Assembly: GCF_025150085.1 (NCBI RefSeq)
Contig: NZ_CP102280.1
Location: 821,001-885,000 of the forward strand
Direction of reading: 5' to 3'
Length of the DNA stretch: 64,000 bases
DNA from: Dorea longicatena
GTDB lineage: Bacteria > Bacillota > Clostridia > Lachnospirales > Lachnospiraceae
Made by a program: the position numbers and the translations under genes. The stretch's first letter is position 1. Each line of letters starts with the position of its first letter. Below are positions 7,164 through 27,344 of the stretch, piece by piece. The notes below the pieces were generated by a model, which saw only the letters and a program-made list of their open reading frames with translations, made no database searches and was not told the origin of the DNA.

Positions 7164-7390
7164 AATATCCTCCAAAATAATATATAAAATTGATATATAA
7201 AAATAATTTGCTATCTTTTATCCAGATGATGCCAGATAAGTATAATATATCCCATGTGAAAAGACAATGTTAAGAAATAAAAAATATATTACATTGTAGA
7301 AAAAAACGTAGTATACTGATTTATATTTTTTTATGAACAGATGTGTTTGTAACGAAAATAATGGATACACCTGAGAGGAGAGACTTAATT

Positions 7391-7654
7391 ATGGTAAAAA
7401 TGAATGTAAAATTTGAAACACCGGAACAGCTTGTAGAATTTTCAAGAATGTGTCAGAAAGTAGAGGCTGATACTCTGATTGAAGATACTGTACATAAACT
7501 TATCATTGATGGAAAATCAGTTATGGGAATGATGACAGTTACATTGAATCAGAGGCTGATCTTTGTAGTAGATGGTTCTGATGAGAAAGAGGTACTTTCT
7601 ACATTTGAAAAATATCGTACGGAAGATATGGTACAGAAGCAGAATCTGGGTTAA
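7391..7654 (+). CDS. Crh-like HPr-fold protein lacking the phosphocarrier histidine
   Basis: An 87-residue HPr-fold protein. HPr normally has a GLHARPA histidine that carries phosphate in the PTS; here the aligned stretch (about 10-20, PEQLVEFSRM) has no histidine. The second HPr landmark is retained: GKSVMGMM (41-48), with Ser43 at the position phosphorylated by HPr kinase (Ser46 in HPr, KSIMG motif). This is the pattern of Crh, a regulatory HPr homologue in bacilli, so a role in carbon catabolite control through HprK (encoded at 44709 in this window) is a reasonable inference. The ATG at 7391 is chosen for its GAGAGGAGAG site upstream; upstream in-frame codons are unlikely to be translated. 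Confidence 0.78.
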   Translation: MVKMNVKFETPEQLVEFSRMCQKVEADTLIEDTVHKLIIDGKSVMGMMTVTLNQRLIFVVDGSDEKEVLSTFEKYRTEDMVQKQNLG

Positions 7655-7699: not shown

Positions 7700-7925
7700 A
7701 GAATAGAATGAAAACTGCAGGTGCCGGTTGGATAAGATTGATCAGAGCCGGTGAAAAGGGAAACAGGTGCAAGTCCTGTACGAACTCGTCACTGTGAGCA
7801 GGGAATATCAGAAAAGAAAAAAGTCACTGGATAACGGGAAGACAAGCTTCTGATGTATGGATCTGTGAGTCAGGAGACCTGCCTGTAGCGTACATGGAAG
7901 TAAATCCGGACCACGAGTAATTGGT
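7700..7925 (+). ncRNA. Cobalamin (B12) riboswitch
   Basis: The conserved cobalamin aptamer core is readable: GAAAAGGGAAACAGGTGCAA (7752-7771) then GTCC, the CACTGTGAGCAGGGAA segment beginning at 7790, and the diagnostic B12 box GTCAGGAGACCTGCC (7869-7883). A possible promoter is TTGCAT (7658-7663) with TATCGT (7681-7686). The aptamer ends about 90 bases before an intrinsic terminator and 120 bases before a secreted protein gene, so cobalamin binding probably favours termination and represses the uptake operon. The exact 5' and 3' limits are approximate. Confidence 0.95.
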
Positions 7926-7971
7926 TGTACAAAAATGGAGGAAAATTATAATAAATTCACAAGGCCATTTT

Positions 7972-8009
7972 ATACCCTTTTACGGATGATTTCGTGGAAG
8001 GGTATTTTT
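7972..8009 (+). terminator. Riboswitch-controlled intrinsic terminator
   Basis: ATACCCTT (7972-7979) pairs with AAGGGTAT (7998-8005), the inner ACG/CGT adds further pairing, and a T run follows. It lies between the B12 box and the start codon at 8043, the position expected for the expression platform of a transcription-terminating cobalamin riboswitch. Confidence 0.88.
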
Positions 8010-8042
8010 GGTGACAGAAAAGTAGTAGGGAGAGAGTAAAAG

Positions 8043-10730
8043 ATGAAACACAATTCCAAGCAATTTTTGGCCTTATTTATGGCTGTGTCTATGGCAGTTG
8101 CACCGGTATCGGGAGTGTATGCGGAAGATCAGAATGCAGCTGTAGAAAATGCTGTGAATGCGAATGTACAGGAGGGCAGTGAAGCGGAGCAGAATGAGAC
8201 TGCTTCGAATGCCGGACAGGCAGAAAGCAGTGTGACGGCGGTTGGAAGTCAGGAAGAAAATAAAGCGGAAACAGCCGGTAAAGGAACAGATACTGCGGAG
8301 GACGAAGACGCGAAGAAGAATGCGGCTCTTGCAAAGCTGTCAGTGGTCAGTGGAACAACCGGTGAACTGAAAGACGGAACATATAAAGTAGAGGCAAAAG
8401 TAGGCGGATCATCCAGAACAAGTATCACCTGTGAAAAAGTGGAAGTAAAGGATGGAAAAGCGACTGCCAGAATCGTATTTTCAAGTGCCGGATATCCAAA
8501 ACTGTGGGTAAATGTAAATGGCACTGTAAAAGAATATGAAAAAAGAACAGACAGTGCAGCAGGAACCAGCGCATTTGATATTCCGGCTGATATTAATAAA
8601 GAGATGAATGTGATCGGATATGTGGAAAAGATGGGATCCTATACAGAATATAAGCTAAACATCAACATTTCCAAAGATACAGAGCCGACAACACCGGAAG
8701 CTCCGGAACAGACGGTTATCACAGGTGTAAGCTTCAGTGAAGGAACGGAACTCAGTATGAAGACGGGAGAAGTTAAGAACCTGACGCTTAAGTTTACACC
8801 GGCATTATCAGCAGAAGAGACAGCACCGGATATGACATGGACTTCTTCTGATCCGGAGGTTGTAACGGTTGAAAAATCCGGATCACAGGCTAAGCTGACT
8901 GCAATGAAAGCAGGAACTGCAGAGGTAACAGCAACATTTAATAACTCTGAAGGTACAGAGATTAAAGCCACATGTAAGGTAACGGTAACAGCACAGGAAA
9001 CAGAAAATAAGACCCTGACAGACGGAAACTATCAGGTGAATGCCGAAGCCGGTGGAAAGATGATCCGTGTCACAAACTGTGTAATGACGGTAAAGAATGG
9101 ACAGATGACGGCAGCAGTAACATTGAGCGGACGGGGATATAACAGAATCTATCTGGGAGATGTAAAAGACGCGCCGAACGATGAAAGTAACTGGATACTT
9201 CCAGATTCGCTTCTTGCAGAGCAGTATACATTCCAGATTCCGGTAGAGAAACTGGATGAGGTAATGACGATTGCCGTTCATACAACGAAGAGTAATAAAT
9301 GGGATACCAGAACACTGACATTCCATTCAGAAGGCATGACTAAGATTGCGGACAGCAATCATGGAAATGCTTCGAATGGCAATAACGGAAGCAATGGATC
9401 GCTGACACCGGGCGGAAATAATAACAACCCGGGAAATACTTCCAATGGAAATAACTCAGGAAGTACAGGAAGCAATAACGGAAATACAGGAAATAATACA
9501 ACAAACAATGGAAAACCGGACAAAGAATCAAAATACGAATCAGATCTGAACAAATCAACAGCCAGAGTTAACAGTGCCACAGGCTTAAAAGATGGTGTAT
9601 ACACACCGGACAGCTTCTCATGGTCAGGTGGAACCGGAAAGGTAAGAATCAGCTGTAGTAAGGTAACAGTTACCGGTGGCCAGGCATATGCAACGATCAC
9701 ATTCAGCAGTACGCATTACCAGTACGTGAAAGCCAATGGAAATGTATATTATCCAAGTTCCAAAACAGGAAGCTCTACTTCCTTTGTAATTCCGGTGGAA
9801 CTGAATAAGAATAATACGATTGTAGGTATGACAACAGCCATGTCTGCAGCACATGAGATTAAGTATACGATTTTTGTATACATTGCGGAAGCAGCAAAAG
9901 CAAATGCATCAACAAGAGCTAATGGAAAAGAAATTACCGTGATTGGTGTAAATGGCAGTGACAGCAGTAAGACGGCAGCTGCAAGTAAGAAACTGGATGA
10001 AGTAGCACCTGAGATCATCGGCCTGGAATATCAGTCAGAGACAAAAGCCGAGCATGCGAAATATTTCAAAATCTATCATTATGATCAGGGGATCACACTT
10101 CTGGAAATTGATATGAGCAAAAAGACGGGAAGAAAAGCAGCCGGTAAGAAATGGAAACAGTCTTCGGATACAAGCGGACTGAATCCTGCAGAGCAGGAGC
10201 AGGCAGCACTGTATCTGAACAAAGTTGTAAAATATCTGATCGTTCCGGAAAATGCAGAGATTCCTGCAGGACTTGATAAGGAAGTTATCGTGGTGAGACA
10301 GCCGGCAGATCATATCTATGCAGGAACCAATAAGATCATTTCCAAGATAGCCAAACTGGGACAGACTGATAAAGTGACGGCAGTTGGTGTAAAGAAAAAG
10401 AAGTGTAAGAATGAGACTATCAAAGAAAAGATGGAAAAGAAAGAAATCATTTACACAGGTAAATCCGGCAAATTAAATTATAAGAAACTGGTAAAAAATA
10501 AATGTGATCTGGCACTCCTTTCTTCCGGTATCCTGCCGAAAAAAGGAAGTAGTAAGAAAGCTGCCAGAAAGAAAATGAAAGCTTATCAGAAGATGACCGA
10601 GAAGATGACGCTTCTTGAGATGCCTGTGATCGTTGACCGTTCAAAAGATGAAAAGGGAAAAGATGCAAAGAAAGAATGGGAAAAAGTCTATCAGGTAATC
10701 CTCGGATGTGAAGATCAGAGTGCAGAATAA
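8043..10730 (+). CDS. Large secreted protein: three repeated beta-rich domains, a BIG2-like domain and half of a substrate-binding fold
   Basis: An 895-residue exported protein and first gene of a B12-riboswitch operon. The signal peptide spans about 1-27 (VSGVYA before EDQ), without lipobox, followed by an acidic Ala/Glu-rich stretch (28-95). A roughly 105-residue domain occurs three times (107-210, 322-428, 513-617), each starting DG(T/N/V)Y and having a V-x-V-(K/T)-x-G-(K/Q) strand turn, one cysteine (130, 346, 538) and an (F/Q)xIP strand; the pattern recalls NEAT domains but is not proven. A bacterial Ig-like BIG2 domain lies at 224-316 and an Asn/Gly/Ser linker at 438-495. The C-terminus (652-890) matches the N-terminal lobe of the next gene's binding protein, sharing YLIVPE, QPxDHIY and CDLA, but the second lobe is absent. 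No LPXTG or membrane anchor. A corrinoid-capture role is inference. Confidence 0.75.
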   Translation: MKHNSKQFLALFMAVSMAVAPVSGVYAEDQNAAVENAVNANVQEGSEAEQNETASNAGQAESSVTAVGSQEENKAETAGKGTDTAEDEDAKKNAALAKLSVVSGTTGELKDGTYKVEAKVGGSSRTSITCEKVEVKDGKATARIVFSSAGYPKLWVNVNGTVKEYEKRTDSAAGTSAFDIPADINKEMNVIGYVEKMGSYTEYKLNINISKDTEPTTPEAPEQTVITGVSFSEGTELSMKTGEVKNLTLKFTPALSAEETAPDMTWTSSDPEVVTVEKSGSQAKLTAMKAGTAEVTATFNNSEGTEIKATCKVTVTAQETENKTLTDGNYQVNAEAGGKMIRVTNCVMTVKNGQMTAAVTLSGRGYNRIYLGDVKDAPNDESNWILPDSLLAEQYTFQIPVEKLDEVMTIAVHTTKSNKWDTRTLTFHSEGMTKIADSNHGNASNGNNGSNGSLTPGGNNNNPGNTSNGNNSGSTGSNNGNTGNNTTNNGKPDKESKYESDLNKSTARVNSATGLKDGVYTPDSFSWSGGTGKVRISCSKVTVTGGQAYATITFSSTHYQYVKANGNVYYPSSKTGSSTSFVIPVELNKNNTIVGMTTAMSAAHEIKYTIFVYIAEAAKANASTRANGKEITVIGVNGSDSSKTAAASKKLDEVAPEIIGLEYQSETKAEHAKYFKIYHYDQGITLLEIDMSKKTGRKAAGKKWKQSSDTSGLNPAEQEQAALYLNKVVKYLIVPENAEIPAGLDKEVIVVRQPADHIYAGTNKIISKIAKLGQTDKVTAVGVKKKKCKNETIKEKMEKKEIIYTGKSGKLNYKKLVKNKCDLALLSSGILPKKGSSKKAARKKMKAYQKMTEKMTLLEMPVIVDRSKDEKGKDAKKEWEKVYQVILGCEDQSAE

Positions 10731-10821
10731 GGGTTATATAAGATGACCAGAATGCGGATCGCATAAAATGATCGGAATGCAGACAAAATATCATGTAATC
10801 AGAAAAAAAGTGGAGAAAAGA

Positions 10822-12027
10822 ATGAAAAAGAGAACATATCGCTTGTTGTGTATACTTGCAAGTACAGTGCTTCTGGTAACAGGAGCACTGACTGGATGCA
10901 GTAGTTCAGGAAAATCGGGTGTGTCTAAAGGAGACGGAACACAGCAGACAGAAGAAAACGGGGCAGAAGAAAAGAAAGCTCCGAAGATAGACGGACTGAA
11001 GTATCAGAAGACGATGCAGTTAAAATATGCCACAGGTTTTGATGTTTACTATTATAAAGGTGGATATAAATTACTGGATGTGCATGATGACAGACAGTAT
11101 CTGATCGTTCCGGAAGGAAAGAAGAAACCGGCAGATCTGGATAAAGATATTGTGGTATTAAAACAGCCGCTGGATCACATTTATCTTGCGGCAACATCGG
11201 CAATGGCACTGTTCGATTCGATGGATGGCCTGGACAGTATCCGGATGTCAGGCGCACAGGCTTCAGACTGGTATATTGATAATGCGAAAAAAGCTATGGA
11301 GGAAGGCCGGATATTGTTCGCCGGAAAATACAGTGAGCCGGATTATGAGATGCTGGTAGATGAGGATTGTGATCTTGCAATTGAATCAACGATGATCCTG
11401 CATACGCCAAAAGTACAGGAAATGATCGAAGATCTGGATATTCCGGTATTTATCGACCGGTCCAGCTATGAAAGTCATCCGCTTGGCAGAACAGAATGGA
11501 TTAAGGCTTATGCGGCAATGTTGAATAAAGAGGATGTGGCAGATACATTTTTCGAGAAACAGACGAAGGTGATCGAAAACCTGAAAGATTTTAAGAATAC
11601 GGGAAAGACGGTTGCTTATTTCTTTGTTAATGCAGATGGAACAGTGGTCGTAAGAAGCAGTAAAGATTATATTCCGAAGATGATTGATATTGCCGGAGGA
11701 AAATACATTTTTTCAGATCTTAAGAATACAGAAAGCAAGAGTGCTTCGGTAGAATTATCAATGGAAGAATTCTATTCAAAGGCGGAAGAAGCAGACTATC
11801 TGATCTACAATGCAACAATTGACAGTCCGATAAACAGTATTGCAGAGCTGACGGCAAAGAATGAACTGTTTAAGGATTTTAAAGCTGTGAAGAACGGTAA
11901 TGTATGGTGCACCGGCAAATCACTGTATCAGGCAACGGATATAGTCGGTAATCTGATCACGGATATTCATCTGATGCTGACAAATGGAGATGAGAAGGAT
12001 ATGACATTCTTGTACAGGGTAAAATAA
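10822..12027 (+). CDS. btuF: Corrinoid ABC transporter substrate-binding lipoprotein (BtuF-like)
   Basis: A 401-residue lipoprotein of the iron/B12 (TroA-like) binding-protein class. The signal peptide ends in lipobox LTGC with Cys26 as the lipid anchor. The N-lobe (about 53-225) contains YLIVPEGKKKPADLDK and QPLDHIYLAATSAM; the C-lobe (about 255-401) follows a long connecting helix typical of the class. The ATG at 10822 is chosen because a TGGAG site precedes it and it begins the signal peptide; the 18 upstream in-frame codons have no ribosome site. It follows the riboswitch-controlled secreted protein and precedes the permease and ATPase, so cobalamin or another corrinoid is the likely ligand, though family members also bind haem and siderophores. 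Confidence 0.85.
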   Translation: MKKRTYRLLCILASTVLLVTGALTGCSSSGKSGVSKGDGTQQTEENGAEEKKAPKIDGLKYQKTMQLKYATGFDVYYYKGGYKLLDVHDDRQYLIVPEGKKKPADLDKDIVVLKQPLDHIYLAATSAMALFDSMDGLDSIRMSGAQASDWYIDNAKKAMEEGRILFAGKYSEPDYEMLVDEDCDLAIESTMILHTPKVQEMIEDLDIPVFIDRSSYESHPLGRTEWIKAYAAMLNKEDVADTFFEKQTKVIENLKDFKNTGKTVAYFFVNADGTVVVRSSKDYIPKMIDIAGGKYIFSDLKNTESKSASVELSMEEFYSKAEEADYLIYNATIDSPINSIAELTAKNELFKDFKAVKNGNVWCTGKSLYQATDIVGNLITDIHLMLTNGDEKDMTFLYRVK

Positions 12028-12041
12028 TACAGTATAATAAG

Positions 12042-12078
12042 AATCAGGTGGGCAAAAGGAAATGTTCACCTGATTTTT
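12042..12078 (+). terminator. Intra-operon terminator between binding protein and permease genes
   Basis: AATCAGGTG (12042-12050) pairs with CACCTGATT (12067-12075) and is followed by TTT. It lies between the stop of the binding-protein gene and the ribosome site of the permease gene, so it probably reduces downstream expression so that binding proteins outnumber the membrane components. Confidence 0.75.
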
Positions 12079-12098
12079 CATCAAAGGAGAAATATAAC

Positions 12099-13178
12099 GT
12101 GGCAGACACTTATAATCAGAAAACGGATCGGCAGGATACGGCCGGATCTGTTTATCAAAAGGAAATTTTTAAACGGCGTTCCAGATATATTCTGGTATTT
12201 TCTGTATTGACGGCAGCATTTTTGATTGTTACGGTTTTGAATATCAATACAGGAAATGTACATATCTCCTTGCCAGAGATCCTGAAAATACTGGCAAGAC
12301 GGGGAGAGGGCGGAACGGAAGCAAATATTATATGGAAGATACGTCTGCCACGGGTTCTGATGGCAGCAATCCTTGGGGGAGCGTTGTCATTATCTGGATT
12401 CTTACTTCAGACTTTCTTTTCCAATCCGATCGCGGGACCGTTTGTCCTTGGAATTTCGTCCGGAGCGAAGATGATGGTGGCACTGGCAATGATATTCTTT
12501 TTGGAACGCTATGCATTTGTGTCTTCTTATACACTGATTGTTGCGGCATTTATCGGAGCATTGATCTCCACCGGTTTTATTTTACTGCTATCCAGGAAAA
12601 TGAAGCATATGGCCACACTTCTGGTAGGTGGAATCATGATTGGCTACATTTGTTCGGCAATCACAGATTTTGTCGTTACATTTGCAGAGGATTCTGATAT
12701 TGTCAATCTTCATGGATGGTCACAGGGGAGCTTTTCCGGAATGAACTGGAGTAATGTACAGGTAGCGGTGATCGTGATCGGTGTGACGACTGTACTTACA
12801 TTTTTCCTGTCTAAGCCAATCGGTGCTTATCAGCTGGGAGAAGCTTATGCGCAGAGCATGGGAGTGAATATCCGCTTTTTCAGGGTGGCACTGATTCTCT
12901 TGTCCAGTATTCTTTCGGCAAGCGTAACTGCATTTGCAGGTCCGATCTCATTTGTCGGAATAGCGGTTCCATATCTGGTAAAACATGCACTTCGTACATC
13001 GAAACCTTTGGTAGTGATACCAGGAACATTTGTTGGTGGAGCGGTATTCTGTATGATCTGTGATCTGATCGCGAGAATGGCATTTGCACCAATGGAATTG
13101 AATATCAGTACGGTGACTTCGATATTCGGAGCGCCTGTTGTAATCTTCATGATGGTGCGTGGGCAGAAAGGCAGGTAG
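12099..13178 (+). CDS. btuC: Corrinoid/iron-type ABC transporter permease (BtuC-like)
   Basis: A 359-residue FecCD/BtuC-family permease that would form the transmembrane channel of the corrinoid importer. The hydrophobic profile suggests about ten helices. Family motifs include RLPRVLMAAILGGALSLSG (about 84-102), FSNPIAGPFVLGISSGA and the C-terminal FAGPISFVGIAVPYLVKH near the ATPase-coupling helix. The start is the GTG at 12099 with AAGGAG 9 bases upstream. A GTG at 12048 in the same frame is rejected because translation from there would run through the terminator hairpin. The ATPase gene follows after only 3 bases, showing tight coupling. Confidence 0.9.
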   Translation: MADTYNQKTDRQDTAGSVYQKEIFKRRSRYILVFSVLTAAFLIVTVLNINTGNVHISLPEILKILARRGEGGTEANIIWKIRLPRVLMAAILGGALSLSGFLLQTFFSNPIAGPFVLGISSGAKMMVALAMIFFLERYAFVSSYTLIVAAFIGALISTGFILLLSRKMKHMATLLVGGIMIGYICSAITDFVVTFAEDSDIVNLHGWSQGSFSGMNWSNVQVAVIVIGVTTVLTFFLSKPIGAYQLGEAYAQSMGVNIRFFRVALILLSSILSASVTAFAGPISFVGIAVPYLVKHALRTSKPLVVIPGTFVGGAVFCMICDLIARMAFAPMELNISTVTSIFGAPVVIFMMVRGQKGR

Positions 13179-13181
13179 AAG

Positions 13182-14282
13182 ATGACAGAGTATTATATAA
13201 AAATGAAAGATCTCGCAGTGGGATATCAGGGGAATGCGCTGATAAGCGATATTAATCTGAAAATAAAAAAAGGCGAGATCGTGACACTGATCGGTCCCAA
13301 TGGAGCGGGAAAATCTACAATATTAAAAAGCATCACCAGACAGTTAAAGCTGATTGGCGGGGAAGTATACATAGATAGCGAGGAAATCCGTAAACTTTCT
13401 TATAAAGAGATGGCAGTTAAGGCGGCCGTGATGCTGACCGAGAGGATGAAACCAGAATTGATGACCTGTCATGATATTGTAGCGACCGGGCGTTATCCTT
13501 ATACCGGAAGACTTGGAATCTTGTCAAGGGAAGATGAGAGAAAGGTGGATGAGGCATTAGAGGCGGTACATGCACAGGAACTTGGAATCCGTAATTTTCA
13601 GGAAATCAGTGACGGACAGAGGCAGCGGGTGCTGCTTGCCCGGGCTATCTGTCAGGAACCGGAAGTGATGATCCTGGATGAGCCGACCTCTTATCTGGAT
13701 ATCCGTCATAAACTGGAACTGCTGGCAATCTTAAGAAAGATGGCAAAAGAGAACGGAATTACTGTAATTATGTCTCTGCATGAGATTGATCTGGCGCAAA
13801 AAATATCGGATCAGGTTATCTGTGTCAAAGGCGACCGGATTGCCGAATTTGGTGATCCGGAAGAAATATTCACGGAAGCAACAATTCGTGATCTTTATGA
13901 AATCGACAATGGTTATTACGATCCGATATTCGGAAGTGTGGAACTTCCAAAGCCGGAAGGAGAACCGGAAGTTCTGGTATTATCTTCCGGTAAAACAGGA
14001 ATCCCGGTCTACAGAAAACTTCAGAAAGCCGGGATTCCATTTGCCGCCGGAATCCTCTATCCGGGCGAGAGCGACTATCAGCTGGCACGGCTGCTGGCAT
14101 CCGGGATCATCAGCGAAGAGCCATATGAACCGATATCCGATGAGACTTACCAGAGGACATTAGAAGTTATGGAAAGATGCGGAAAAGTGATCAATGCGGG
14201 AGTGAAAGTTGGAAGTATGAACCAAAAGATGGGGGAACTGCTTCGGATTGCGGAGGAGAGAAGGATGTTGGTTTCTATTTAA
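13182..14282 (+). CDS. btuD: Corrinoid/iron-type ABC transporter ATPase with C-terminal extension (BtuD-like)
   Basis: A 366-residue ATPase that powers the importer. The ABC domain (about 1-240) has Walker A GPNGAGKST (38-46), the Q-loop region near 85, signature ISDGQRQR (142-149, with Asp where the consensus LSGGQ has Gly), Walker B VMILDEP (162-168) and switch His200 in SLHEID. Residues 255-366 form an extra domain (EVLVLSSGKTGIPVYRKL onward, about 110 residues) absent from minimal BtuD/FhuC proteins of about 255 residues; its role is unknown. The gene starts 3 bases after the permease. Its last codons lie inside a giant inverted repeat shared with the end of aroA, so the proteins end in MLVSI and NSVSI. 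Confidence 0.88.
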   Translation: MTEYYIKMKDLAVGYQGNALISDINLKIKKGEIVTLIGPNGAGKSTILKSITRQLKLIGGEVYIDSEEIRKLSYKEMAVKAAVMLTERMKPELMTCHDIVATGRYPYTGRLGILSREDERKVDEALEAVHAQELGIRNFQEISDGQRQRVLLARAICQEPEVMILDEPTSYLDIRHKLELLAILRKMAKENGITVIMSLHEIDLAQKISDQVICVKGDRIAEFGDPEEIFTEATIRDLYEIDNGYYDPIFGSVELPKPEGEPEVLVLSSGKTGIPVYRKLQKAGIPFAAGILYPGESDYQLARLLASGIISEEPYEPISDETYQRTLEVMERCGKVINAGVKVGSMNQKMGELLRIAEERRMLVSI

Positions 14283-14555
14283 TCATCATGGCGGCTTCCC
14301 CCGGTCCTGAATAAAAGTATGGGAGTGATTTCTGTGCTGATTCGATCATGGAGTAACTCTAGAGCAACAAAATTGTCCTAAAAGCAGCCTTGAAAAAATC
14401 AAAGCTCGACATTCGTCTCAGACAATGATTTTTCCAAGGCTAACGGTCAATTTTATTACTCAAGAGTTACTAACCATGACCTCATATGCACAGAAATCAC
14501 TCCCATACTTTTATTCAGTCACGTTTTCGCATGCCATAATAATTAAATAGAAACC
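14270..14555. repeat. Giant imperfect inverted repeat (about 286 bases) across two convergent gene ends
   Basis: Outer arms 14270-14292 and 14533-14555 match over 23 bases with two differences and include the last coding codons and stops of both the ATPase and aroA. Middle arms 14308-14337 and 14488-14517 are a perfect 30-bp complement. Inner pairing continues: TCATGG and AGTAACTCT against AGAGTTACT and CCATGA (14346-14360 with 14463-14479), and GCCTTG/CAAGGC segments (14387-14401 with 14426-14440), around a roughly 24-base loop. There is no transposase. It could act as a bidirectional transcription barrier or be a MITE-like insertion. Confidence 0.85.
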
Positions 14556-27030: not shown

Positions 27031-27344
27031 AATATTGAAAAAAGCGCAGAAGAGGAGTATTAAGAGTCGAGCGTTATCAAGAGAACTGCCGGTTGGTGCA
27101 AGGCAGCAGACGAAGACTCCCAACTCGCCTCAGAGTTCTTTTGCTGAACAGATCATGTGGATAGAGAAGATACGGGATACAAGGTATTTATCCGAAATCA
27201 TGATAACATAGGCAGAAGCGGGAACTTCCCGTTACAGAAGATCAATGAGTGCATCTGACAGATGATGTCGGGTGAAAAAGAGTGGTACCACGGAATATGA
27301 GCCTTTTTCGTCTCTTATAAAGCGAGATGAACAGGCTTTTTTTA
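27031..27344 (+). ncRNA. T-box riboswitch (leucine) with terminator
   Basis: The leader of leuS. Stem I includes AGAGAACTGCCGGTTGGTGC (27093-27112), a typical distal-loop region. The conserved T-box AGTGGTACCACGG is at 27281-27293. The antiterminator competes with a terminator whose arms include GAGCCT and AGGCTTTTTTT (27299-27344). The probable specifier codon is CTC (27124-27126), Leu, in the loop after GACTCCCAA; this is inferred by position and by the downstream gene. Uncharged tRNA-Leu should allow read-through into leuS. Confidence 0.92.

Follow-up and report, generated by a model that had tools for sequence, protein, structure and literature searches.

Organization of the cobalamin-regulated NEAT operon

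The window analyzed here, a stretch of 64,000 nucleotides from the genome of Dorea longicatena, contains an operon that the fold of its proteins places among Isd-type NEAT relays and its regulation among B12 uptake operons. We hold it a little better than an even chance that this operon encodes a cobalamin-repressed, Isd-like NEAT relay, which captures a cobalt tetrapyrrole, most likely corrinoids, outside the membrane for delivery to a binding protein and a FecCD-type importer, and we place this reading in Lachnospiraceae and neighbouring Clostridia. Its computed part comprises the riboswitch and terminator, the NEAT fold of repeats R2 and R3, the absence of the heme motif, the conservation of the operon, and the single origin and degeneration of the half-lobe, a partial binding protein at the end of the first gene product.

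The operon runs in the order riboswitch, terminator, P0001 gene, P0002 gene, FecCD permease, and ABC ATPase (Table 1). The aptamer covered model positions 1-189 of 189 and passed the gathering cut-off of RF00174 (97.4 vs 31.5 bits), and the terminator hairpin was stable (-25.9 kcal/mol, z -5.2). Both elements lie before the P0001 gene. The cobalamin-regulated system that an earlier note on this DNA had proposed is supported. The top NCBIfam families were BtuC for the permease (206.4 bits, under the cut-off of 334) and the corrinoid ATPase for the ATPase (219.9 bits, under the cut-off of 537).

A cbi/cob cluster that includes CbiD lies some 11 kb ahead of the window in the same genome (names other than CbiD were assigned by eye). 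Two cobalamin riboswitches were found in total in the genome, each preceding NEAT proteins. Downstream of the second lie a secreted CbiK and a lipoprotein of 184 aa, the latter 64% identical to the NEAT part of the protein P0123, and the only CbiK/CbiX-family matches in the genome lie within the secreted lipoprotein under this second riboswitch.

No lipobox, LPXTG motif, or C-terminal transmembrane segment was found in P0001 by sequence inspection and script. The lysine-rich C-terminus of the window protein was considered as a wall anchor and dropped; most of the other nine half-lobes in alignment A2 look acidic by eye. Relative to the R1-BIG2-R2 region of P0001, homologs contain an extra repeat.

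Table 1. Features of the operon and of the P0001 protein, with positions in the window
Feature	Position	Strand	Basis
Cobalamin riboswitch aptamer (RF00174)	7702..7900	+	97.4 bits, E 4.6e-23
Intrinsic terminator hairpin, presumed expression platform	7972..8005	+	15-pair stem and T tract
Secreted NEAT(3)-BIG2-half-lobe fusion protein P0001, 895 aa	8043..10730	+	
Signal peptide, residues 1-27	8043..8123	+	Site by eye
NEAT repeat R1, residues 106-214	8358..8684	+	Alignment to R3 far above shuffles
BIG2 domain, residues 227-307	8721..8963	+	PF02368 28.2 bits, cut-off 22.8
NEAT repeat R2, type B, residues 322-432; Trp near last-strand start	9006..9338	+	
Asn/Gly/Ser-rich linker, about residues 440-490	9360..9512	+	Sequence
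NEAT repeat R3, type A, residues 512-617	9576..9893	+	
His604-x-x-x-Tyr608, last-strand start, in place of YXXXY	9852..9866	+	By strand position
Half-lobe, degenerate N-lobe of class III binding protein, residues 651-895	9993..10727	+	
Lys814, at the position of the binding protein's predicted docking Glu	10482..10484	+	
Lipoprotein substrate-binding protein P0002, both lobes	10822..12027	+	PF01497 2.2e-54; lipobox by eye
FecCD-type permease	12048..13178	+	PF01032 2.4e-77
ABC ATPase	13182..14282	+	PF00005 3.3e-30

Identity of the repeats

The three repeats had been described in the earlier note as copies of one beta-rich domain, and their kinship held: all three pairwise scores, as well as that of the half-lobe with P0002, exceeded 500 of 500 shuffles. 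The note had missed their NEAT identity and the conservation of the fusion. The predicted models of R2 and R3 have the NEAT beta-sandwich fold, and NEAT proteins made up 41 of the best 42 rows in the structure comparison of R2, which rules out an Ig-only reading of the repeats. The NEAT structures matched by the repeat models are heme chaperones.

The NEAT assignment came only from fold comparison and weak Pfam matches; when solved structures were searched by sequence with P0001 and with the repeat profiles, no match was significant. PF05031 scored 24.3 bits on R1, below its cut-off of 32.8, and this cut-off was passed by the close homolog P0074 (33.1 bits). With the two-domain model, Foldseek alone did not reach E 0.001, its top matches (best E 2.5e-3, probability 1.00) being binding proteins and Isd proteins. 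In the Dorea longicatena genome, PF05031 at E up to 1 detected no further NEAT domain, a weak test that also missed R2 and R3, and the type A profile matched P0001 only. The division into type A and type B is a simplification, made by pattern on 451 domains including duplicates (156 type A, 155 type B, and 140 neither); at E<0.01, NEAT was matched by 6 of 31 domains of type A and by 5 of 31 of type B.

Heme-binding NEAT domains carry YXXXY in strand beta-8, with the first tyrosine as the metal ligand, according to a review (PMC7815599). This motif is absent from all three repeats, its place being taken by YTEY in R1, by WDTRT with its Trp in R2, and by HEIKY (His604-x-x-x-Tyr608) in R3, and this replacement sets them apart from heme NEATs. 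The repeats are thus NEAT domains but not ordinary heme NEATs. The His and Tyr of R3 were invariant in 56 of 56 rows of alignment A4, the window row included, and these rows had been selected without regard to the motif. Alignment A5 was selected by a pattern containing His and is hence not usable for counting it. Among the type A domains, His occurred at its spacing in 145 of 156, a count that is partly circular. The Trp was invariant in the type B rows of alignment A8, which was not selected by Trp. In the R3 model the last strand (96-105) begins with His604, and, judged by strand position, this residue would sit about where heme NEATs have their iron-binding tyrosine. Loop 22-27 of the same model, the candidate counterpart of the heme-NEAT 3-10 helix lip with its serine, consists of six residues and shows no helix.

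Association of the NEAT domain with cobalamin genes

The type A NEAT domain is tied to cobalamin genes. It was present in 53 of the 150 family genomes sampled (149 genera), and 51 of the 150 had it alongside a binding protein or half-lobe of this kind; two genomes had the one only, two the other only, and 95 neither (Fisher p 4.6e-35, kinship ignored). At least 41 of 56 type A contig clusters had a same-strand riboswitch no more than 9 kb upstream. Seen from the riboswitches, 43 of the 150 listed were followed by a type A domain at no more than 9 kb, which indicates that cobalamin riboswitches in this family mostly control other genes.

Twenty unfused operons had been chosen for a riboswitch lying a few kb ahead of the binding protein; every one of them (20/20) encodes a NEAT domain, often after a CbiK-like lipoprotein (CbiK was called by eye, except at L048, L056, and L148). 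NEAT and CbiK are fused in one gene at L048 and L056, and NEAT is fused to a complete binding protein at three of the 20 loci, namely L048 (by Pfam), L049, and L062. The repeats therefore occur with cobalamin and cobalt-chelatase genes and not only in unrelated proteins. None of the three outcomes that the earlier note had set as refuting its view was seen; its observation is confirmed, and its interpretation is supported in part.

Conservation and single origin of the half-lobe

The fusion of NEAT domains to a half-lobe was found in about 11 of the 150 family genomes, including Dorea longicatena (the G010 copy is broken or masked). A contig scan with an alignment of ten fusions gave 127 relatives, and the best 80 of these 127 loci contained 79 fusions in 78 loci, with none at L139 and L143; the scan motifs derive from the fusion, and the counts describe the fusion and not its prevalence. 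The loci include those of Coprococcus comes, Faecalicatena contorta, Blautia glucerasea, Fusicatenibacter saccharivorans, and Eubacterium pyruvativorans. A same-strand upstream riboswitch was identified in 61 of the 69 fusions with testable upstream DNA, by a model built on 14 examples, several of them from these same loci; the other ten fusions lie at contig edges. No riboswitch was found at L076, L097 (first copy), L108, L110, L116, L122, L130, and L140, some of which have only about 1 kb upstream.

The structural match of the C-terminal segment stops at the N-lobe, and for 78 of the 79 fusions no C-lobe was detected (L116 and L125, both among these, are cut at the contig end); the exception is L115, in which the half-lobe runs on into a whole binding protein. 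At most 47 residues follow the half-lobe in 78 of 79. With no complete two-lobe fold found, the earlier claim of a true single lobe stands. In a tree of 35 half-lobes (sampled from the 79) and 51 binding proteins, the half-lobes all fell on one side with support of 100/100. The half-lobe also holds 8 of the 22 invariant columns of alignment A4, and its model is a high-confidence fold. The half-lobe has one origin, is old, and has been kept. A recent pseudogene or an assembly artefact is ruled out by this single origin and conservation.

Residues lost and kept in the half-lobe

We compared 80 half-lobes aligned with 89 binding proteins. Ala655-Pro656, Tyr680, Tyr731, Gly743, and Pro754 were each kept in 80 of 80 half-lobes, and Asp865, Arg866, and Trp879 were mostly kept. 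Trp150, Glu188, Met191, His194, and Arg223, each present in 88 or 89 of the 89 binding proteins, were replaced, and Tyr170 was retained in 32 of 80. The lost residues would presumably line the ligand cleft.

P0002 itself is a complete binding protein (PF01497, Peripla_BP_2, profile 5-234 of 235), and its predicted docking residues Glu176 and Glu315 were invariant in 21 of 21 rows of alignment A9. No solved relative was found with its sequence alone; its profile had Lmo2184, which we take to be a heme-uptake protein, as the sole significant solved relative, and its top NCBIfam match was IsdE (30.3 bits, far under the cut-off). In BtuCD-F, the glutamates of the binding protein pair with permease Arg56, and such pairs are needed in relatives (PMC3741162). 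Glu176 aligns to Glu72 and Glu315 to Glu202 of the E. coli BtuF precursor (PMC3741162 writes Glu74), and the same pairing was obtained with one BtuF and with 16 BtuF sequences, in which both glutamates are invariant, at values that are not significant (E 0.059 and 0.053, hhalign probability ~1%). Glu176 was present in 89 of 89 binding proteins, and at the equivalent position 53 of the 80 half-lobes have Lys, 14 Arg, and 7 Ala. If the weak BtuF mapping of Glu176 holds, the docking charge would be reversed in the half-lobe.

With Lys or Arg in place of the predicted docking Glu in 67 of 80, the half-lobe is likely not a usual permease dock. Of the three roles suggested in the earlier note, docking to the importer is accordingly disfavoured in its usual form, as far as the weak mapping allows, and the suggested decoy found no support. 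The third, handing corrinoid over from the repeats, fits best because NEAT is fused to a whole binding protein in some unfused operons. The half-lobe is unable to close on ligand; it is probably neither a binding lobe nor the usual importer dock, and probably serves instead as an adaptor that places the final NEAT domain at the binding protein.

Anchoring and partner of the half-lobe

The half-lobe goes together with a different anchoring. A signal peptide without other anchor was found in 65 of 69 fusions and in 119 of 120 close homologs, and a lipobox in three fusions. Among those listed, 111 of 120 relatives of about 300 residues without a half-lobe had a lipobox. No lipobox was found by pattern in 23 of 89 binding proteins; 12 of these, in fusion loci, and that of L046 have an ordinary signal peptide instead, by reading. 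The idea that the half-lobe replaces an anchor is weakened at these loci, since the 12 binding proteins there seem to be without a lipobox themselves. Across 47 loci, the partial distance correlation of the half-lobe was 0.32 with the C-lobe of the binding protein, 0.27 with its N-lobe, and 0.38 with the permease, and this mirror-tree comparison did not discriminate the binding protein from the permease as its partner.

Proposed mechanism and alternative explanations

Under the relay reading, low cobalamin would make the leader let the operon through, and the NEAT repeats of the secreted fusion would gather ligand. The final NEAT domain of the fusion, which carries His604, would hold the ligand and pass it on to the binding protein, a lipoprotein. 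For its part, the half-lobe would no longer bind ligand or dock on the permease in the usual way; we infer that it acts as an adaptor keeping the secreted NEAT protein against the complex of binding protein and importer, where it may substitute for the lipid or membrane anchor of relatives without a half-lobe. Regulation and neighbouring genes point to a corrinoid or cobalt-tetrapyrrole as the ligand. R1 and R2 are without the His, the nearest matches of the binding protein are Lmo2184 and IsdE, and eight fusions with upstream DNA had no riboswitch; these observations speak against the relay reading.

The operon could instead be a heme (iron) NEAT system over which a cobalamin riboswitch has gained control, its repeats binding heme through other axial ligands and its importer taking up heme; this would account for the heme chaperones among the structure matches and for the resemblance of P0002 to IsdE and Lmo2184. 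NCBI labels several two-domain relatives 'iron transporter' (others are 'hypothetical protein' in databases), and NEAT domains that bind heme via other axial ligands exist, according to the review cited above (PMC7815599). Nevertheless, the loss of YXXXY from R1, R2, and R3, the riboswitch before most testable fusions, and the CbiK fusions and neighbourhood make this explanation unlikely. An intermediate of the cobalt-tetrapyrrole type has to be weighed seriously against a finished corrinoid, because the only CbiK/CbiX matches lie in a secreted protein, and with the genome's own cbi/cob cluster with CbiD the import need not be of a finished corrinoid. In its specific form, the ligand would be cobalt or a cobalt-loaded early intermediate: secreted CbiK would load sirohydrochlorin or a related tetrapyrrole with cobalt outside the membrane, and the relay would feed the cbi pathway. 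The CbiK-NEAT fusions suit this explanation. However, the riboswitch fits the uptake of finished corrinoids equally, enzymes of other families could insert cobalt inside the cell, and the gene for CbiK, a putative chelatase, lies in a separate operon here, and we regard this form as unlikely too.

Regarding the half-lobe, its direct docking not on the binding protein but on the permease, as an additional or competing plug of the importer, would agree with its N-lobe ancestry and with a correlation slightly higher for the permease than for the binding protein. The Lys or Arg at the predicted docking position, though the Glu mapping is weak, carries a charge opposite to that of the partner of the permease arginine in BtuCD-F (PMC3741162), and such docking seems rather unlikely. 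We find it improbable, as a joint reading, that a whole NEAT class moved from iron to cobalt with a His-ligated surface relay and an extracytoplasmic CbiK, loading or catching cobalt-tetrapyrroles outside the cell, and that the half-lobe forms a hetero-clam with the real binding protein, so that the importer receives its ligand from a tethered chaperone and not from free solution. The loss of residues invariant in binding proteins could also mark the half-lobe as a decaying remnant without function, but its single origin in 35 of 35 sampled half-lobes, its invariant columns, its high-confidence predicted fold, and its constant end near the protein terminus leave this explanation very improbable.

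Significance and comparison with known systems

To our knowledge, cobamide capture at the surface of Gram-positive gut bacteria is an open question; Bacteroides have BtuG and BtuH. If the relay reading is true, proteins now called 'iron transporter' or 'hypothetical' would serve cobamide capture in about a third of the 150 family genomes, the NEAT fold would extend from heme to corrinoids, and the half-lobe would be a natural case of half a two-lobe binding protein kept for another job. Among the titles and abstract beginnings of the open-access literature, we found none on a NEAT domain with cobalamin in this sense, although a publication may exist in subscription papers or preprints. For NEAT with corrinoid, the same open-access material, which does not extend to subscription papers or preprints, gave only a remark on S-layer proteins of Dehalobacteriia. 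We found no described counterpart of the half-lobe in the open-access literature.

The operon resembles the Isd heme relay (NEAT to IsdE-IsdF) in the NEAT fold, the secreted NEAT chain, the class III binding protein, and the FecCD permease. It differs from Isd in the cobalamin riboswitch, the absence of YXXXY with a His or Trp close to where the last strand begins, the half-lobe, the CbiK partner, and the lack of a sortase signal on P0001. With BtuCD-F it shares a class III binding protein, a BtuC/FecCD-type permease, an ATPase, and the two predicted docking glutamates of P0002, whereas its scores fall below the NCBIfam cut-offs, NEAT proteins stand in front, and a degenerate N-lobe has been duplicated. 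In Desulfovibrio, a B12-element precedes cbiK-cbiL and btuCDF (PMC545781); unlike that cbiK next to B12 transport genes, CbiK here is secreted, with NEAT domains fused or adjacent. In its presumed working, the system can be likened to BtuG and BtuH of Bacteroides, surface lipoproteins that catch cobamides for uptake (PMC8941943, PMC10404256).

Genomic context and allelic variation of the riboswitch operon

A short way 5' of the B12-riboswitch operon lies a cbi/cob cobamide biosynthesis cluster (about 809-825 kb in the genome), the end of which overlaps the start of the window. A second cobalamin riboswitch was identified in the same genome (locus at about 649.7-651.9 kb, riboswitch included), followed by a gene for a predicted secreted CbiK-type cobalt chelatase and then by one for a NEAT lipoprotein. 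Genome-wide, CbiK/CbiX-family matches were found only in this secreted CbiK protein.

Comparison of window positions 8988-9347 with the homolog P0003 showed that one type B NEAT repeat of the 1007-aa homologs is missing from the window allele, and the loss apparently occurred by exchange between adjacent repeats. The 895-aa form also constitutes a big cluster (P0027, 1744 members).

Within the window, a small HPr-like ORF is the immediate 5' neighbour of the cobalamin riboswitch. Additionally, an imperfect inverted repeat was located past the operon and before the next gene; it may represent a terminator or else a small mobile element.

Features in the window, elsewhere in its genome and in comparison loci
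Feature	Location	Basis or remark
Small HPr-like ORF	window 7343-7654	PF00381, 23.4 bits (cut-off 23)
Imperfect inverted repeat, AGTAACTC... / ...GAGTTACT	window about 14350-14478	by eye
T-box leader	window 27038-27318	RF00230, 98.4 bits
cbi/cob cluster	L149 16737 to L150 13392 (own genome)	CbiD by test, remaining genes named by eye
Secreted CbiK-type chelatase and NEAT lipoprotein	L148 5128-6912 (own genome)	downstream of second cobalamin riboswitch
NEAT protein with FMN-binding-domain-like stretch	L045 13006-15999	by eye
Binding proteins without visible lipobox	L068, L075, L077, L080, L082, L088, L103, L104, L119, L128, L132, L137	by eye

Among the comparison loci, 12 from Gram-positive genomes encoded ABC-importer binding proteins in which no lipobox could be seen and whose signal peptides look ordinary. 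The locus encoding a NEAT protein with an FMN-binding-domain-like stretch contained two cobalamin riboswitches.
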